Notes under the pieces: model-generated
Seen by the model: only the letters and a program-made list of their open reading frames with translations
Databases searched by the model: none
Told to the model about the DNA's origin: nothing
Translations under genes and position numbers: made by a program
NCBI RefSeq assembly: GCF_013340205.1
Contig: NZ_BJTG01000014.1
Span: 1 to 64,000, forward strand
Direction: 5' to 3'
DNA from: Anaeromyxobacter diazotrophicus
Lineage (GTDB): Bacteria > Myxococcota > Myxococcia > Myxococcales > Anaeromyxobacteraceae
DNA: 64,000 bases
Shown: positions 6,994 to 15,378 of the stretch, in pieces
Position numbering within the stretch: the first letter of the stretch is position 1
Layout of the letters: each line of letters starts with the position of its first letter

Positions 6994-7358
6994 GCCAGCT
7001 CCTCCGGCGCGAGCCGCACCGGGCTGGAACCCCGCGCCCCCAGGCGCACACGCCGCGCGTCGGCCTCCCGCCGCAGCGCGCCATGGCGCCGCTCGAGCTC
7101 CACGGCCTCCACCTCGGCGCGGCGGGCGGTGAGCTCATGGGCGTCTGCGGCGTCGAGGAGCCCGACCGCGAACGCCTCCTGCCCCGCGAGGCGCGCCTGC
7201 TCACCTCGCTCCCGCCGATCGGCCGCGCGGGACCGCGCGACCCGCGCCCGCTCGCGGGCGGCGCGCAGGCCGGCGGCCGCGTGCGCAGCCTCGTCCTCCA
7301 GCCGCTGCCACGCCGCCAGCTCGCCGCCCCGCTCCCGCGCGCCCGGTGTCCTCGTCAT
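6990..7358 (-). CDS. FliJ/YscO (SctO)-like coiled-coil protein
   Basis: 122 residues, almost entirely charged helix: AAWQRLEDEAAHAAAGLRAA, then AVEAVELERRHGALRREADA, with Arg/Glu/Ala heptads and no membrane span or cysteine. This is the look of FliJ/YscO stalk proteins that bind the export ATPase. GGGAGG lies upstream of the ATG at 7358. It is followed, with a 4-nt overlap, by the FliK/YscP-like gene, which matches the O-P gene order of type III clusters. The export ATPase that should precede it is absent; the next upstream gene is divergent. Identity rests on shape and order only. Confidence 0.5.
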   Translation of the reverse strand: MTRTPGARERGGELAAWQRLEDEAAHAAAGLRAARERARVARSRAADRRERGEQARLAGQEAFAVGLLDAADAHELTARRAEVEAVELERRHGALRREADARRVRLGARGSSPVRLAPEELA

Positions 7359-7531
7359 GGAGGCCTCCCGCGCGACGCGTTCTGCAGCGGCGGTGCCAGG
7401 CGCAAACCCGCGCCCGCCATCCGCCGCGCCGGCCGGGCCCGCCCGCGCCGTGGACCGCCCGGCCGCCCGGCGACCGGGCGCCGCGCCCAGTGGACCCCCG
7501 CCGTACGCTCCCCGCCCCCGCCGCCATCCCA

Positions 7532-7568
7532 CAGGCAGCCTTGGCGCCCCCTGGGAACGCTCCAACCT
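7532..7568 (+). promoter_or_regulatory. Upstream element shared by the tandem lipoprotein genes (copy 1)
   Basis: The block CAGGC-(n)-TTGGCGCCCCCTGGG then CGCTCCAACC ends about 37 nt before the ATG at 7605. A closely similar block precedes the second lipoprotein gene (9260-9296). It is probably a common control site or the remnant of the duplication. Confidence 0.4.
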
Positions 7569-7604
7569 TGTGTGCGCGCCCCCCGCGGCGCGGGGGAGAG
7601 GCCC

Positions 7605-9230
7605 ATGGTCCTGGCGCGGCGAGCCCTGGCAGGCTTCTGGTGCGCGGCCGTCCTGGCCGCCTGCAGCGGCGGCTCACACCCGTCCTCGCCGGCCTCGACC
7701 GGCGGCGGCGCCCCGGACGACGGCGGCGTCACCGCCACGGGCGCGGACGGCGGCGCCGCGGACGGAGGGACGCCGGACGCAGGGTCCCCCGACGCCGGCG
7801 CGCCGGACGCGGGCACCGACGGCGGGACCGCGCTCACGCCTCCGTTCACGAAGGACGGCTGGACCTTCTACGGTACGGCCCAGGGGCTCTCGCGCGACGT
7901 GAACGACGCCTCCGCCGACGAGGGCGGCAACGTCTACGTGGCGGGCGGCGACGCCCTCTACGCCAAGCGGCGCGGCGACGCCGCGTTCCAGCGCTACGAC
8001 GCGGCCGCCTCCGGGCTCACGCAGAACTGCTACGCCGGCCTCCCGGCCGAGTCGGACCCTGCCTTTCCCGCCGCCATCAACCGCGTCCATCCGGCCCCGC
8101 CCGGCGCGCCCCGGCTCTGCCCGGTGGTCTCGGTGGCGGGCGCCGCGCCCGGGACGGCGGTGGTGGGCCTCAAGGGCATCGGCACCGACGAGGACCTCGA
8201 CGCCGACTGGGCGCAGGACTCGGGCGGCGCCGACCTCGTCCAGTTCGACGGCGCGAAGCTCTCCCGCACCCGGCACCTCTTCCTCGCCTCGCCGCCCCAG
8301 ACCGTCTGCGTCGCGCCGGACGCGAGCGGCCGCCTCGTCGAGAGCCGCGCCACCTCCTGCCCCAACCCGCCCGATCCCTTCTTCTGGCAGGTCGGGCGCC
8401 GCAAGCTGCGCCAGGTCCTCCGCATCGCGGTGAACCACCAGGCGGGCACGCCGCTCTACGGCGACGCTTTCCTGGGCGGCACCCACGCCAGCATCACCGC
8501 CTACCTCCACGACTCCGCGGCGCGCGGCCTCCGCGACCGCACCGCCGGGCAGCCGGCGAAGTGGGCCGACGCGAAGGACGTGTGGGAGCACGACCACCCC
8601 GCGTTCTGGTCGAACACGCGCAACGCCTTCCTCACCGGCTACACGCACGCCGTCGCGGTCGACCCGCGGAGCGGCACGCCCTGGTGCTCGAACGGCTTCC
8701 GCACCGCCTGGCTCAGGGGGTACGGCGCCGACCTGCACGACGACGTGTGGTGGCTCGAGCCGGAGACCGCCGCGAACCCGCTCTGGTACGACTTCTGGCC
8801 CGACAACGCCGTCCCCACGGAGTCGATCGACGACAACGTCGAGTCCCTCGCCTTCTGCGACGACGGGACGCTCTGGATCGGCTCCTCCGCGCACGGCCTC
8901 GCCCGGCGCGATCCCGGCGGCGGCGTGACGTACCTCTCCTTGCCCGACCCCGGCACGCACGGCGACAGCGTGTACGCCGTCGCCTGCGACCCGAGCGACC
9001 AGTCCGTGTGGATCGGGCTCGGCTGGGGCGGCCTCCTGCGCTGGCGCGACGGCCAGTTCACCGCGCTCGATCCGGCGGGCCTGCCCGACTTCGCGCGGCA
9101 GCCGGTGCGCTCGATCCAGATCGACCGCTGGTCGAATCCACGCATCGTGTACGCCGCCTTCATGGCCAGCGCGGACGCGAGCGGCGCCATCTCGGCCGGC
9201 GGCGGCGTGGCGGCCTACGCGGGCCCGTGA
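7605..9230 (+). CDS. Lipoprotein with beta-propeller-like domain (paralogue 1)
   Basis: 541 residues. The lipobox VLAAC ends at about Cys20, followed by a low-complexity linker rich in Pro-Asp-Ala-Gly (about residues 30-80) typical of myxobacterial surface lipoproteins. The remaining ~460 residues show repeated blade-like motifs (DEGGNVYVAGGDALYA, DDGTLWIGSSAHGLARRD, QSVWIGLGWGGLLRW, VAAYAG) as in two-component-regulator-type or WD-like propellers. There are conserved Cys and a WEHDHPAFW segment. GGGGAGAGG precedes the ATG. It lies directly upstream of a paralogue with the same layout. Likely exported and membrane anchored; ligand unknown. Confidence 0.75.
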   Translation: MVLARRALAGFWCAAVLAACSGGSHPSSPASTGGGAPDDGGVTATGADGGAADGGTPDAGSPDAGAPDAGTDGGTALTPPFTKDGWTFYGTAQGLSRDVNDASADEGGNVYVAGGDALYAKRRGDAAFQRYDAAASGLTQNCYAGLPAESDPAFPAAINRVHPAPPGAPRLCPVVSVAGAAPGTAVVGLKGIGTDEDLDADWAQDSGGADLVQFDGAKLSRTRHLFLASPPQTVCVAPDASGRLVESRATSCPNPPDPFFWQVGRRKLRQVLRIAVNHQAGTPLYGDAFLGGTHASITAYLHDSAARGLRDRTAGQPAKWADAKDVWEHDHPAFWSNTRNAFLTGYTHAVAVDPRSGTPWCSNGFRTAWLRGYGADLHDDVWWLEPETAANPLWYDFWPDNAVPTESIDDNVESLAFCDDGTLWIGSSAHGLARRDPGGGVTYLSLPDPGTHGDSVYAVACDPSDQSVWIGLGWGGLLRWRDGQFTALDPAGLPDFARQPVRSIQIDRWSNPRIVYAAFMASADASGAISAGGGVAAYAGP

Positions 9231-9296: not shown

Positions 9297-9326
9297 GTCG
9301 AGGTGGTGAGCAGGCGGGAGGCCGGC

Positions 9327-11054
9327 ATGGCGAGGGGTGGGTGGGCGATGAAGGTGGCGCTGGGGCTGTCGCTCGCGGCGTGCGCCGGGAAGCAGGAGCA
9401 GGTGAGCGTGCCGCCGGACGCCGGCCCGCTCGCCGGCTCGGACGCGGGCGCCAGCGACGGCGGCGCCGACCCGGACGGCGGGGGCGGCGCGGTGGCCGCC
9501 GCGGGCAGCGGCGCGGGCGATGGCGGGGCGGACGCCGGCGCTCCCGACGCCGGCACGGGCACCCCGGACGCCGGCACCCCCGACGCCGGCGTGACGCTGG
9601 CGCCGCCGGTCACGCTCGACGGCTGGACCTTCTACGGCGCGCAGCAGGGGCTGCCCGCGGAGACCTACGACGTCTCCGCCGACGAGGGCGGGAACGTCTA
9701 CGTGGCGGGCGGCGACGCCGTGTACGCGAAGGCGCCCGCGGCCGCGCTCGCCCCGGCGAAGGACACCTTCGCGCGCTTCGACGCCGCCGCCGCCGGGCTG
9801 ACGCAGAACTGCTTCCAGGGGCTCGATCCCTTCACCGCGACGGAGGCGGACCTCGACCGCACCGCCCACCCCCAGCCCCCCGGCGCCCCGGCCCTGTGCC
9901 GGATCGTCTCGGTCGGCGGCGCGGCCGCGGGTAAGGCGATCGCCGGGTTCTGGGCGTACGGCACCGACGGCGACCTCAACGCGGAGTGGGCGAAGGACTC
10001 GGGCGGCCTCGACGTGCTGGCGTTCGACGCCGCGGCGGGCAAGCTCACGCGGACCCGCCACGTGTACGTCGCGACCGCGCCCGGGGTCATCTGCGGCGCC
10101 TTCGAGCAGACCTCGACGCCCAGCGCGACCCCGACCTGCCAGCCCTGGGACGAGTTCATGCTGTACGGCCGTCGCAAGCTGCACCGGGTCTACCGGATCG
10201 CCGTGAACCACCACCCGGGCACGCCCCAGTACGGCGACGTGTGGATGGGCGGCACGCACGTCACCCTGTCCGCCTTCTTCAACGACCAGGCCGAGGCGCG
10301 CGGCTGGTACGGGAACGGCTACATCCGGAGCTGCCCCTCCGCGCACGGCGCCGACCCGGCGGTCTGCCCCAAGTTCGCGGACCCGGTGACCGGCGCCTGG
10401 AACGTCTTCGAGCACGAGCACCCGGCCTTCAACGGGACGACCTACCCCGACGGCGTGGTGAAGGGCCCGGCTCAGACCGGCGAGACCTGGGCGATCGCCC
10501 TCGCGCCGTCCGGGCAGCCCTGGGCGCACAACGGGCTGCGGCTCGGCGGGATGCGCGGCGACACCTCGAACCTCGGGATCGGCGTCGCGATGGACTGGAA
10601 CCTCGTCTTCGACCTGTGGCCCGACGACCCGAAGGCGGACCCGACGGTGCTGACGCAGCCGGCGGACGACGACGTGCAGGCGATGGCGTTCTGCCCCGAC
10701 GGCGCGCTGTGGGTGGGCTCCCGGACGCACGGCCTCGCGCGCGTCAGCACCAGCGACGGCAGCCTGGCCGCCTACGGCCTCCCCGGCGGCGGCCAGAACG
10801 TGTGGGCGCTGGCGTGCGACCGCCGCGACCAGCTCTGGATCAGCACCGACTGGGGCGAGATCGTCCGCTACGACACGCACGCCGGGGCGTGGTCCCTGCC
10901 GCTGGCGGCGAAGGCCGGGGTCCCGGAGCTGGCGCACCACGTCGCCTGGAGCATCCAGGTCGACGACTGGTCGCAGCCGAACCCGGTGGTCTACTTCGCC
11001 ATGCGCTCGCTCCACGGCGCGCCGGGCGGCGTGGTGGCCTACGCGGGGCCGTGA
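9327..11054 (+). CDS. Lipoprotein with beta-propeller-like domain (paralogue 2)
   Basis: 575 residues. The ATG at 9327 has GGGAGG 5 nt upstream, which favours it over the GTG at 9303. The signal ends in SLAAC, then an Asp-Ala-Gly/Pro linker to about residue 90. The exported domain is a clear paralogue of the preceding gene: GWTFYGAQQGLPAETYD, DEGGNVYVAGGDAVYA, GRRKLHRVYRIAVNHHPGTP, WVGSRTHGLARV and a C-terminal VVAYAGP. It differs by a ~35-residue insert around ARGWYGNGYIRSCPSAHG, with an added Cys pair. Tandem duplication is evident. Function unknown; surface location is inferred from the lipobox. Confidence 0.75.
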   Translation: MARGGWAMKVALGLSLAACAGKQEQVSVPPDAGPLAGSDAGASDGGADPDGGGGAVAAAGSGAGDGGADAGAPDAGTGTPDAGTPDAGVTLAPPVTLDGWTFYGAQQGLPAETYDVSADEGGNVYVAGGDAVYAKAPAAALAPAKDTFARFDAAAAGLTQNCFQGLDPFTATEADLDRTAHPQPPGAPALCRIVSVGGAAAGKAIAGFWAYGTDGDLNAEWAKDSGGLDVLAFDAAAGKLTRTRHVYVATAPGVICGAFEQTSTPSATPTCQPWDEFMLYGRRKLHRVYRIAVNHHPGTPQYGDVWMGGTHVTLSAFFNDQAEARGWYGNGYIRSCPSAHGADPAVCPKFADPVTGAWNVFEHEHPAFNGTTYPDGVVKGPAQTGETWAIALAPSGQPWAHNGLRLGGMRGDTSNLGIGVAMDWNLVFDLWPDDPKADPTVLTQPADDDVQAMAFCPDGALWVGSRTHGLARVSTSDGSLAAYGLPGGGQNVWALACDRRDQLWISTDWGEIVRYDTHAGAWSLPLAAKAGVPELAHHVAWSIQVDDWSQPNPVVYFAMRSLHGAPGGVVAYAGP

Positions 11055-11069: not shown

Positions 11070-11771
11070 CTAGGTGTACTCGCGCTCGATCACCTCGCCC
11101 GGCCGCGCCGGGCCGGTGAGGAGCGCGAGGGCGTCGGTGAGGATGCGCTTCTGCAGCTCGGGCGCGTTGGGCTTGCCGAGCGAGTGGCCGGCCACGAAGC
11201 CGCGCGGGCAGAGCGCCCGCGGCGGCCGGGCCTGCGCGCTCTCCTCCGGCTCGACGGTGATGACGACGGTGGGGATGCCGATCAGCTCGATCATCCGCTG
11301 CACGGTGACCACCGTGCGGTGGCAGAGGCGTCAACCGCCGGTGAGCAGCACGGCGCTGGGCCGGGTGCGGTCGATCTCGCGCACGAGCTGCGGCAGCGTC
11401 TTCTCGCGCAGGTCGCGCAGCGCCATGCTGAACCCGAGCGAGAAGTGCTGCTCGGTGAGGCCACCGATGCGCTTCTCGTGGGCGAGCTCCCGCATCCGGT
11501 CGATGGGGAAGATGCAGTTGATGTCCTGGTCGGCGCAGGCGTGATCGTAGTGCGCGTCGTCGAAGGTGAGGTCCGCGCCCGCGGCCTCGCCGGAGATCAC
11601 GCGGTAGCTCGCGTCCCCCTCCACCTGGAAGGGGGCGTCCCTCTTCTCGCGGACGCCCGCGGTGGAGACGAGGCAGATGGTCGCCTCCTCCAGCTTCCCC
11701 GCGAAGGGGGTGTACGGGACGCAGTACCGCGACAGCTCGAGGGGCTTCCCTTCGGTCTTCTCGGTCGCCAT
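11070..11771 (-). CDS. GrdB-like selenoprotein (UGA = Sec147)
   Basis: 233 residues when the in-frame UGA at 11331-11333 is read as selenocysteine. The sequence around it is LLTGG-U-RLCHRTVVTVQRM, giving the U-x-x-C redox motif of the glycine/betaine/sarcosine/D-proline reductase selenoprotein B family. Up- and downstream parts are in the same frame and continuous in family character (SRYCVPYTPFAGKLEEATI before it; IGIPTVVITVEP after it). A hairpin with a GGUC loop follows the UGA. The ATG at 11771 has GGAG upstream. The gene lies 27 nt after a peroxiredoxin-like selenoprotein gene on the same strand. Without a PrdA/GrdA partner nearby, the substrate is unknown; an orphan redox role is more likely than amino-acid reduction. 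Confidence 0.85.
11300..11317 (-). promoter_or_regulatory. bSECIS hairpin of the GrdB-like gene
   Basis: Starting 13 nt after the UGA, the minus strand reads GCACGGU-GGUC-ACCGUGC: a perfect 7-bp stem with a GGUC apical loop. That loop matches the GGUC of the Escherichia coli fdhF element, and the loop sits 21-24 nt after the UGA, within the usual range. Confidence 0.85.
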
Positions 11772-11798
11772 CGAGAGCTCCTCGAGCCGCACGGCCCG

Positions 11799-12299
11799 CT
11801 ACTTCAGCTTGTCGAGCGCCGCCATGATCTTGTCGGTGGGCGGCTGCTGCGAGATGTCGTGGATGTCGATGTAGGCAACCTTCCCCTGCTTGTCGACGAC
11901 GAAGATCGCCCGCTCCACCAGCCCGTCGCCCCGGAGCACGCCGTACTGGGCGGCGACGAAGCCGTACGGCCAGTTGTCCGCCAGGAGGGGGTACGACAGC
12001 CCGCCGAGGGACTTGGCCCAGGCTTCCTGCGCGTGGACGAGATCCGTGCTGATGCCCAGAACCTGGGCATTGCGCCGCTCGAACTCGGAGGAATCCTCCT
12101 CGTACGAGGGCATCTGCACGGTTCAGACGGGGGTGAAGCTGGCCGGGAAGAAGGCCAGCATGACGTTCTTCTTGCCGCGGTAGTCCGAGAGGCGGACCTT
12201 CTTCTTCGGGCCTCCCTTGCCAGCCGTGTCGCCGGTGGCCGGGAGCTCGAAATCCGGCGCCTCGTCGCCGATCGCGAGCTTCCAGATCGCTTTCGCCAT
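11799..12299 (-). CDS. Peroxiredoxin-like selenoprotein (UGA = Sec59)
   Basis: 166 residues with readthrough. The N-terminal part (GDEAPDFELPATGD, LSDYRGKKNVMLAFFPASFTPV) is a typical AhpC/TSA thioredoxin fold. The UGA at 12123-12125 falls exactly where the peroxidatic Cys stands in F-T-P-V-C-T, and the frame continues as TVQMPSYEEDSSEF, then LGISTDLVHAQEAWAKSL and AIFVVDKQGKVAYIDIHD. The ATG at 12299 has GGAGGAG upstream. It should reduce hydroperoxides with Sec as the attacking residue. No second resolving Cys is seen, so a 1-Cys type mechanism or an external partner is likely. First gene of a two-gene operon with the GrdB-like gene. Confidence 0.88.
12088..12101 (-). promoter_or_regulatory. 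bSECIS hairpin of the peroxiredoxin-like gene
   Basis: Starting 21 nt after the UGA, the RNA reads GAGGA-GGAU-UCCUC, a 5-bp stem with a GG-starting loop. The stem can be extended by UCG (12105-12107) pairing with CGA (12085-12087) across a 3-nt bulge. The loop lies 27-30 nt from the UGA, within the accepted range. Confidence 0.7.
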
Positions 12300-12435: not shown

Positions 12436-12645
12436 ATGGATCTGCTGACCCGCTTCGCTGGCAACGTCCGGCGCCTTCGCGCGAAGAAGAAGCTCTCGCA
12501 GAAGTCGCTTGCCGACAAGGTCGGCATCTCGGTGTCCTACGTCTCGATGCTCGAGCGCGGCCAGCGATCGCCGCCGCTCGAGACCGTCGAGAAGATGGCG
12601 AAGGCGCTCGGCGTCACGCCGTCGAACCTGCTCGGCGGCAAGTAG
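12436..12645 (+). CDS. Small Xre-family regulator
   Basis: 69 residues consisting of a single helix-turn-helix: FAGNVRRLRAKKKLSQKSLA, DKVGISVSYVSMLERGQRSP, and LETVEKMAKALGVTPSNLL. This is the Cro/C1-type fold, with the QKSLADKVGISVSYVS recognition unit and the ERGQRSP turn. No ligand or dimerisation domain is present, so it probably acts as a dimer through its last helix. There is no ribosome binding site before the ATG, so translation may be leaderless. It is divergent from the selenoprotein operon, which it could regulate; it resembles free-standing Xre proteins of many genomes, so the role is not certain. Confidence 0.85.
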   Translation: MDLLTRFAGNVRRLRAKKKLSQKSLADKVGISVSYVSMLERGQRSPPLETVEKMAKALGVTPSNLLGGK

Positions 12646-12753: not shown

Positions 12754-13572
12754 ATGGCGCTCACTCGGCGAGACTTCCTGAAGGGCGCGGCGGCGCTGGC
12801 CGTCGCCGGCGGGGCCGCGCCCGCCGCCGCGGCCACCGAGCCGACCCGCAGCGAGGCCCGGGCGTTCGCGGTGGAGGGGCTCGATCCCGCCCACGCCGGC
12901 CTGCGGGTGGTGCAGCTCTCCGACCTCCACGTCGGCGCGCGCACGCCGCGCGAGCGCATCCGCGACGCCATCGACCGCGCCAACGCCTTCGATCCCGACC
13001 TCGTCGTCCTCACCGGCGACTACCTCTGCCGCGAGCGGCGCGGCGTCGGCCTCATGCGCGAGCAGCTGGGCGGGCTCCTCGCGCCCACCGTGGCGGTGCT
13101 CGGCAACCACGACCACTGGGTGGACGCCCGCGGCGCCACGCGCGCGCTGCAGGCGCTCGGCTACGCGGTGCTCCGCAACCAGAACACCACCCTGCAGCTG
13201 CGCGGCGCGCCCTTCACCGTCATCGGCGTGGACGACCGGCTCACCGGCCAGGCGCGGCCCGAGGAGGCGCTGCGGGGGGCCGAGCCCGGCTCGCGCCTCG
13301 TGCTCGCGCATGGGCCTCGCACCGCCGACGACCTCCGGGGCGCCGGGCTGCCGCTCCTCTGCTTGTCCGGACACACCCACGGCGGCCAGTGGCACGTCCC
13401 CGGGCTCACGCCGTTCATGCTGCGCACGCTCGCGCACGAGCCCTACGAGCGCGGGCTCTACCGCCTCGGCGCGGTGCAGCTCTACGTGAACCGCGGGATC
13501 GGCAACTCGGCACTGCGGCTCCGGATCGACTCGGATCCGGAGGTCACGCTCGCCACGCTGCGCCCGGCCTGA
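12754..13572 (+). CDS. Exported metallophosphoesterase (Tat signal)
   Basis: 272 residues. A twin-arginine signal TRRDFLKGAAALAVAGGAA opens the protein. The calcineurin-like metal ligands are present in order: QLSDLHVG (D, H), VLTGDYL (D), VLGNHDHW (N, H), VLAHGP (H) and LSGHTHGGQW (H, H). The family (YaeI/YkuE-like) acts on lipid-linked or nucleotide phosphates at the outer face of the membrane; the exact substrate cannot be read. The Tat signal fits co-factor loading in the cytoplasm before export. It stands as a single gene between the Xre and aldehyde dehydrogenase genes. Confidence 0.9.
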   Translation: MALTRRDFLKGAAALAVAGGAAPAAAATEPTRSEARAFAVEGLDPAHAGLRVVQLSDLHVGARTPRERIRDAIDRANAFDPDLVVLTGDYLCRERRGVGLMREQLGGLLAPTVAVLGNHDHWVDARGATRALQALGYAVLRNQNTTLQLRGAPFTVIGVDDRLTGQARPEEALRGAEPGSRLVLAHGPRTADDLRGAGLPLLCLSGHTHGGQWHVPGLTPFMLRTLAHEPYERGLYRLGAVQLYVNRGIGNSALRLRIDSDPEVTLATLRPA

Positions 13573-13665: not shown

Positions 13666-15378
13666 ATGCCCGCTGCCGTGGAGATCCCGAAGCCCACCGA
13701 GCGCGCCCGGCTCGACGAGGCGCTGCAGCGGCTGCGCGAGGGGGCGTCGCGCTGGGCGAGGCGCCCGCTGGCGGCCCGCATCGCGCTCGCCCGCGACCTC
13801 CACCGCGGCGCCGCCGCCATCGCCGAGCGGGCGGTCGCCGCCGCCTGTGCCGCCAAGGGCCTGCAGCCGGGCACGCCGCAGGAGGGAGAGGAGTGGCTCG
13901 CCTCGCCCTACGCCACGCTGCGCTTCCTGCGCCAGACCGTCCGCTCGCTCGTCATGCTGGAGCGCAACGGCAACACGCCGGTGGGCCAGACCGGCGAGAC
14001 CGCCGACGGCCGCCTCACCGTCCGCGTCTTCCCCGCCAACCGGCTGGACGCGCTCCTCTACGCCGGGATCCGCGGCGACGTGCACCTCGAGGCGGGCGTG
14101 GACGAGGACGAGATGAACCGCTCGCGGGCGCGCTTCCACAAGGCGCCCGACCACGACGGGAAGGTCTGCCTCGTGCTCGGCGCGGGCAACGTGAACTCGA
14201 TCCCGGCCGCCGACGTGGTCACGAAGCTCTTCAACGAGGGCAAGGTCTGCCTGCTCAAGATGAACCCGGTGAACGCGTACCTGGGGCCGCTGCTCGAGGA
14301 GGCGTTCGCGGGCGCCATCGCGGCCGGGTTCCTCGCCGTCGTGTACGGCGGCGCCGAGGAGGGGGCCTACCTCGCCCAGCACCCCGCGGTGGACGAGCTG
14401 CACATCACCGGCTCGAACCGCACCCACGACCTCCTGGTGTGGGGCCCCCCGGGCCCGGAGCGGGCGGAGCGCATGGCGCGCGGCGCCCCGCTGCTCCAGA
14501 AGCCCATCTCCAGCGAGCTCGGGAACGTCACGCCCATCCTGGTGGTGCCCGGCTCCTGGTCCGAGCGCGAGCTGGCCTACCAGGCCGACGGGGTCGCCGG
14601 GATGGTGACGCACAACGCCTCGTTCAACTGCATCGCCGGCAAGATGCTGGTCCTGCCGCGCGGCTGGAAGCTGCGCGACCGCTTCCTCGAGCTCGTGCTG
14701 CAGAAGCTGGCGCTCACCCCGGCGCGCCGCGCCTGGTACCCGGGCGCCGAGGAGCGCTACCAGGCCCTCACCGAGGGCCGCGACGAGCTCCGCCGGCTGG
14801 GCGGCGGCGAGCACACCCTCCCCTGGACCCTGCTCCCGGGGCTCGACCCGGACGACCCGGCCGAGCCGGCCTTCACCACCGAGCCGTTCTGCTCGATCCT
14901 CTCCGAGACGCAGGTGGGGAGCGACGATCCGGTCGAGTACCTCGACCAGGCGGTGCGGTTCTGCAACGAGCGGCTGTGGGGCACGCTCAGCGCCGCGGTG
15001 CTGGTGAGCGCGCGCTCGCAGCTCGACCGGACGGTCTCGGCGGCGGTGGAGCGCGCCGTGCGCGGGCTGCGCTACGGCTCGGTGTGCGTGAACCTGTGGC
15101 CGGGGCTCGCCTACACCACCGGGACCGGCCCCTGGGGCGCGTTCCCCGGCTCGACCCTCACCGGCATCCAGAGCGGGCGCGGGTTCGTCCACAACACCCG
15201 CATGCTCGAGCACGTCGAGAAGCTGGTGCTGCGCGGCCCGGCCTGGAGCCCCGTGAAGCTGCCGTACGTGCCGAGCCACAAGACCGCCCACGCGCTCGGC
15301 CGCCGCCTCGCGGCGCTCGAGGCGGACGGGCACTGGCGGCACGTCCCGGGCATCGTCGCGGCGGCGCTGCGCGGCTGA
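13666..15378 (+). CDS. Aldehyde dehydrogenase family protein
   Basis: 570 residues, longer than the usual ~480-500. The catalytic cysteine is C322 in THNASFNCIAGKMLVLP and the general base is E284 in SSELGNVTPILVVPG. The nucleotide-binding region shows VCLVLGAGNVNSIPAADVVTK and VDELHITGSNRTHD. It belongs to the NAD(P)-dependent aldehyde dehydrogenase superfamily, but the spacing around E284 and the long N-terminal region are atypical and the substrate is unknown. GAGAGG precedes the ATG. Monocistronic; a strong hairpin separates it from the convergent M13 peptidase gene. Confidence 0.85.
   Translation: MPAAVEIPKPTERARLDEALQRLREGASRWARRPLAARIALARDLHRGAAAIAERAVAAACAAKGLQPGTPQEGEEWLASPYATLRFLRQTVRSLVMLERNGNTPVGQTGETADGRLTVRVFPANRLDALLYAGIRGDVHLEAGVDEDEMNRSRARFHKAPDHDGKVCLVLGAGNVNSIPAADVVTKLFNEGKVCLLKMNPVNAYLGPLLEEAFAGAIAAGFLAVVYGGAEEGAYLAQHPAVDELHITGSNRTHDLLVWGPPGPERAERMARGAPLLQKPISSELGNVTPILVVPGSWSERELAYQADGVAGMVTHNASFNCIAGKMLVLPRGWKLRDRFLELVLQKLALTPARRAWYPGAEERYQALTEGRDELRRLGGGEHTLPWTLLPGLDPDDPAEPAFTTEPFCSILSETQVGSDDPVEYLDQAVRFCNERLWGTLSAAVLVSARSQLDRTVSAAVERAVRGLRYGSVCVNLWPGLAYTTGTGPWGAFPGSTLTGIQSGRGFVHNTRMLEHVEKLVLRGPAWSPVKLPYVPSHKTAHALGRRLAALEADGHWRHVPGIVAAALRG

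Follow-up and report, generated by a model that had tools for sequence, protein, structure and literature searches.

The two adjacent genes described here almost certainly form a bicistronic selenoprotein operon, in which a gene encoding a selenocysteine (Sec) peroxiredoxin (Prx) precedes one encoding an orphan PrdB-like selenoprotein. They are located on the minus strand of a 64,000-nucleotide stretch of the soil bacterium Anaeromyxobacter diazotrophicus (contig NZ_BJTG01000014.1), hereafter the window. The best explanation of their association, to which we would give nearly an even chance, is that the PrdB-like protein serves as the dedicated reductase of this one-Sec Prx. The Prx gene (11799..12299) encodes a protein of 166 aa with Sec59, of the one-Sec type of the AhpC/TSA family. 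The longest open frame of the second gene (11792-11070) begins at GTG 11792, an alternative start; ATG 11771 is the better candidate because homologues start there and a GAGGAG is found just 5', so that the gene most likely spans 11070..11771. With this start, the gap between the two genes is 27 nt (11772..11798) and contains the GAGGAG ribosome-binding site. The pair is flanked by a divergent Xre-type gene (at 12436) on one side and by a convergent gene (9303-11054) on the other, so that the Prx and PrdB-like genes constitute a two-gene unit, as a sequence-only reading of the window had proposed when it placed two adjacent selenoprotein genes in one operon.

In the Prx gene, the in-frame TGA (12125-12123) corresponds to residue 59, within the context FTPVUTVQM that includes the TxxU motif. 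In the PrdB-like gene, the in-frame TGA (11333-11331) lies within the context LTGGURLCH, whose GGURLC part provides a UxxC motif; this Sec is residue 154 when counted from GTG 11792. Each TGA aligns with the catalytic column that is invariably Cys or Sec in its own family, with 21 Sec and 2 Cys among 23 orthologues. Neither another stop codon nor another residue occurs at either Sec position in the 23 orthologues of each gene, the Cys homologues carrying TGC instead of TGA. This confirms the earlier assignment of both UGA codons to the expected redox residues, FTPVUT in the Prx and UxxC in the second gene. The genome also encodes the complete selA/selB/selC/selD set, i.e., selA (523 bits), selB (337 bits), selD (395 bits) and a tRNA-Sec (76 bits) that ARAGORN also detects, with a UCA anticodon. 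The selD gene of this genome (L019 1501-2427; G000:C2:35154-36080) has an in-frame TGA of its own and thus probably encodes a selenoprotein too.

A SECIS-like hairpin had been proposed past each UGA, one of them with a GGUC loop; both hairpins are borne out, and the GGUC loop belongs to the PrdB-like hairpin, not to that of the Prx. The PrdB-like hairpin (11300..11317, minus strand) is formed by the stem GCACGGU/ACCGUGC closed by the loop GGUC, which starts 20 nt past the UGA. Among 18 distinct Sec sequences, 96% of the pair cells are standard, and two pairs covary by double changes (G-C to C-G and U-A to C-G). None of 500 shuffles equalled the observed percentage or the covariation score, and standard pairing reached only 13-60% when the stem was slid out of register. 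Two sequences (L041 and L043) have a shifted stem. The Prx hairpin (12078..12108, minus strand; outer stem CUCG...CGAG, inner stem GGAG/CUCC) is almost invariant, and synonymous codon identity over the 14 codons past the UGA is 0.90 versus 0.705 gene-wide, the peak for the gene (0.96) being found a few codons further on. In an unpaired Prx orthologue (L096), GGAG/CUCC is changed to GGGG/CCCC and CUCG/CGAG to UUCG/CGAA; read by eye, these changes are compensatory. Both hairpins are lost in the two Cys homologues, while the proteins are still similar. For the window sequence, the fold energy z-scores are -2.8 (Prx) and -1.4 (PrdB-like), which are unconvincing alone, and the z-scores obtained under mono-nucleotide shuffling are weak; the case for the hairpins therefore rests on covariation and synonymous constraint. 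The Rfam SECIS family gives no match in the window at gathering thresholds.

The first gene encodes a one-Sec peroxiredoxin, a predicted peroxidase according to its domain (PF00578 AhpC/TSA, 116.8 bits) and to the location of Sec at the peroxidatic TxxU position. Two-Cys peroxiredoxins as well as the one-Cys AhpE are among its closest relatives of solved structure. With PrxU of Eubacterium acidaminophilum (NF040737; PxxxTxxU Sec-Prx), it shares the AhpC/TSA fold family and the peroxidatic Sec, but it scores only 58 bits against this model (cut-off 270). Unlike PrxU and the Sec-peroxiredoxins, it has no conserved resolving Cys and has a fixed PrdB-like partner. AhpE (Rv2238c) from Mycobacterium tuberculosis is among its best solved relatives (78 bits); however, AhpE has a Cys where the window Prx has Sec, and its known reductants differ. 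According to the one-Cys logic of AhpE, an external reductant is needed.

The second protein is an orphan PrdB-like protein and not a subunit of D-proline reductase, since PrdA is missing. PrdA was not found in the genome of the window nor in six paired relatives, whereas the two PrdB-bearing control records were both detected (976 and 1024 bits). The protein exceeds the gathering cut-off of PF07355 (GRDB; 28.6 bits, cut-off 22) and reaches no NCBIfam cut-off. The best NCBIfam model, TIGR04483 (PrdB), matches over the full length with 142.1 bits (cut-off 300), whereas GrdB-type models give 34-43 bits, e.g., 36.5 bits for TIGR01917 (glycine reductase GrdB; cut-off 602). GrdB was rejected as a close label on these scores, and the name "GrdB-like" given by the sequence-only reading has to be replaced, as the protein is nearer to PrdB. 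A tblastn search against plasmid records retrieves annotated PrdB at 35-39% identity, in the order prdA-orf-prdB.

The homology to PrdB extends over the full length (39% identity to PrdB of Acetoanaerobium noterae and 36% to that of Ligilactobacillus salivarius), and both share the Sec/Cys-x-x-Cys motif and the DINC cysteine. However, the second gene remains below the family cut-off, lacks PrdA, is paired with a peroxiredoxin and encodes three added cysteines (C24, C40 and C86). With the GrdB of glycine, sarcosine and betaine reductases (PF07355, TIGR01917/TIGR01918), it has PF07355 and UxxC in common, but it matches only partially, under all NCBIfam cut-offs, and is shorter (about 240 aa versus about 435). 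The PF09338 (GrdE-type) partner of GrdB was not found for it: this domain gave no match in 193 Myxococcota genomes, the control genomes being silent as well. An AF2 model of the PrdB-like protein (13 sequences, mean pLDDT 82) places Sec154 immediately before helix 155-170, which follows strand 147-151. A fold search of the PDB with this model gave no match at E < 0.001, so no function could be proposed from the fold. Searching PDB sequences with a profile yielded a single match (E 0.31), and no relatives were found in viral_contigs.

The conservation of the pair was surveyed in 195 Myxococcota genomes. Close homologues of the PrdB-like protein are 23 in number, that of the window included, and in 23 of these 23 genomes the same Prx gene lies directly upstream, with order and strand kept. 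This pairing spans five families of the order. Conversely, the Prx is paired in 23 of the 24 genomes that have a close Prx, the exception being G157. The Sec/Cys states of the partners always match: 21 pairs are U/U, two are C/C and none is mixed. In both gene trees, the two C/C pairs group as a single clade whose sister, with 100% support, is a U/U pair from their own genus, and both C/C genomes retain a tRNA-Sec. As this clade is nested among U/U pairs and the tRNA-Sec has been kept, the C/C state is most simply explained by a single replacement of Sec by Cys that affected the two genes jointly, at a time when the cell still had Sec at its disposal. The state match amounts to a single evolutionary event; it therefore suggests, and does not prove, that the Prx and the PrdB-like protein have a matched redox demand. 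The earlier proposal that the two proteins act together is thus supported both by the pairing and by the matched states.

Other relatives occur outside such pairs. A second, more distant UxxC group of the GrdB/PrdB superfamily (L047-L053, matches near 1501-2175 each, L098 and L100) is also present in Anaeromyxobacter soli (L053). Its members have an in-frame TGA, with the motif L[VIF]P[AV]UxxC in Myxococcota, and never adjoin a Prx of the pair type. Two genomes (L097 and L099) from a small unnamed phylum, represented here by four genomes, encode a Sec PrdB-like protein that has no Prx next to it, which implies that the protein can work without the Prx partner or with one encoded elsewhere. In L071 (5007-5675), which belongs with L097 and L099 to this solo form (52% identical), the gene lies between a PHP-domain gene and a lipoyl synthase gene, after a pyruvate dehydrogenase E2 gene. 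Several Anaeromyxobacter genomes (L026, L033, L034, L035 and L036, about 30-525 in gene orientation) have a second, more distant Prx gene that lies upstream of the Sec pair at a distance of a few hundred bases; the window lacks it.

The distribution of cysteines distinguishes the paired proteins from their relatives. The window Prx has no Cys apart from its Sec; among the Prx orthologues, the Sec column is the sole invariant one and the next Cys column is occupied in at most 7 of 23. No conserved resolving Cys, the mark of two-Cys peroxiredoxins, was found in these 23 orthologues, so an outside reductant is needed. In the PrdB-like protein, C24, C40, C86, C93 and C157 are invariant (23/23), besides Sec154. 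True PrdB has only Sec154, C157 and C93 of these residues, and the solo relative L097 has C24 in addition. C40 and C86 belong to the paired form only, as they are missing from true PrdB and from all the unpaired relatives aligned. The unpaired Prx orthologue L096 carries three extra cysteines, but it is a single example and two of these cysteines are already present in L043, a paired relative.

These features led us to a mechanism in which Sec59 of the Prx would attack the peroxide and be converted to selenenic acid. The Sec-x-x-Cys motif of the PrdB-like protein (Sec154-Cys157) would form a mixed Se-Se or Se-S bond with the oxidised Sec59 and thereby resolve it, leaving the PrdB-like protein as an internal selenenylsulfide, which C24, C40, C86 and C93 or a cellular dithiol could then reset. 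Although adjacency is no proof of contact and the extra cysteines of the PrdB-like protein could have a different function, e.g., in metal binding, a dedicated reductase best explains the pair. Electrons would then have to pass from the PrdB-like protein to the Prx, a step that the sequence-only reading had already raised and that is plausible, at a likelihood that stops short of even. We further propose, tentatively, that a PrdB-type scaffold became the dedicated reductase of a one-Sec Prx, giving a two-selenoprotein peroxidase whose partners switch together between Sec and Cys.

It is also conceivable, though rather unlikely, that the PrdB-like protein works as a Sec-reductase in its own right, with a small molecule as substrate; as in D-proline reductase, its selenol would cleave a C-X bond, but with another activating partner, while the Prx would protect the selenol or remove a peroxide by-product. 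The full-length homology to PrdB would fit such a role, as would the solo Sec PrdB-like gene beside lipoyl synthase and pyruvate dehydrogenase genes, which points to a function of its own elsewhere. However, no gene elsewhere in the operon provides a partner that would activate the substrate, only the paired form has the extra cysteines, and the known partners were not found, neither PrdA in the seven paired genomes searched (the positive controls being detected) nor GrdE/PF09338 in the Myxococcota searched, though in that case the control was silent.

Selenoprotein genes often cluster and other Prx-containing pairs have no proven link (PMC2398784, PMC13188914), so that the two genes could merely be co-transcribed through a common selenium or oxidative-stress response, their products not interacting. 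The exclusiveness of the pairing, its fixed order and the matched Sec/Cys states make this unlikely, all the more so as the other UxxC relatives of the same phylum never adjoin a Prx of this type. The same gene anatomy would fit a Prx acting as a peroxide sensor, with the PrdB-like protein as the signalling target that it oxidises. One-Cys peroxiredoxins can indeed hand oxidation to partner proteins; nevertheless, the PrdB-like protein has no regulator domain and such a redox relay appears improbable. An ordinary subunit of D-proline reductase is highly improbable: TIGR04483 is the best NCBIfam match and UxxC is conserved, but the score is less than half of the cut-off, PrdA is missing whereas both control records were detected, and the neighbours are unlike those of prd loci. 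Lastly, nothing beyond the stop codons themselves would favour broken or mis-sequenced genes ending at real UGA stops, a negligible prospect given that 21 species share the TGA at an identical position and two have TGC there, that the Sec machinery is complete and that the downstream hairpins are conserved.

Zhang and co-workers described 11 selenoproteins in Anaeromyxobacter dehalogenans in 2006, including three peroxiredoxins, a proline reductase, two thioredoxins and a DsbA-like protein (PMC1794560). From lineage and family, we infer that these entries include the same genes as the pair described here. The Prx and PrdB families are abundant in marine metagenomes, and many "PrdB" selenoproteins were counted in metagenomes from the ocean as well as in organisms that are not noted Stickland fermenters; these surveys state no function of "PrdB" beyond D-proline reduction (PMC1088965, PMC2398784). 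The Prx/SelW-like and Prx-like/AhpD-like pairs (PMC2398784) are likewise adjacent selenoprotein genes that include one Prx, but the family of the partner differs. The Prx/PrdB pair is not among the selenoprotein pairs named in PMC2398784 or in a 2026 review (PMC13188914). We found no report of a Prx/PrdB-like pair in a literature whose coverage here is incomplete, so that an earlier report may exist, and the gene families were already known in this lineage.

The operon provides a tractable case, in which an orphan PrdB-like protein without PrdA is tied to one Prx, together with a natural Sec-to-Cys double switch within one genus. The function of orphan PrdB proteins thus becomes directly testable with two small proteins. 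Recognition of the pair would also put right annotations in which each gene is broken into two or the second is called a proline reductase. If the PrdB-like protein does reduce the Prx, the PrdB/GrdB superfamily would have a function outside amino-acid reduction, with a Sec-Cys pair passing electrons on to a peroxidatic Sec.

Other genes surround the operon in the window. On the plus strand, divergent metallophosphoesterase-like and aldehyde/acyl-CoA-dehydrogenase-like genes (12754-13572 and 13666-15378) accompany the pair at about 8-11 of 20 related loci according to an all-against-all neighbour clustering, which is confounded by spurious frames due to high GC. On the other side, two tandem paralogues (7083-9230 and 9303-11054, plus strand) adjoin the selenoprotein operon; they carry Ala/Asp/Gly-rich N-terminal repeats and have the common motif DGWTFYG...EGGNVYVAGGDA.
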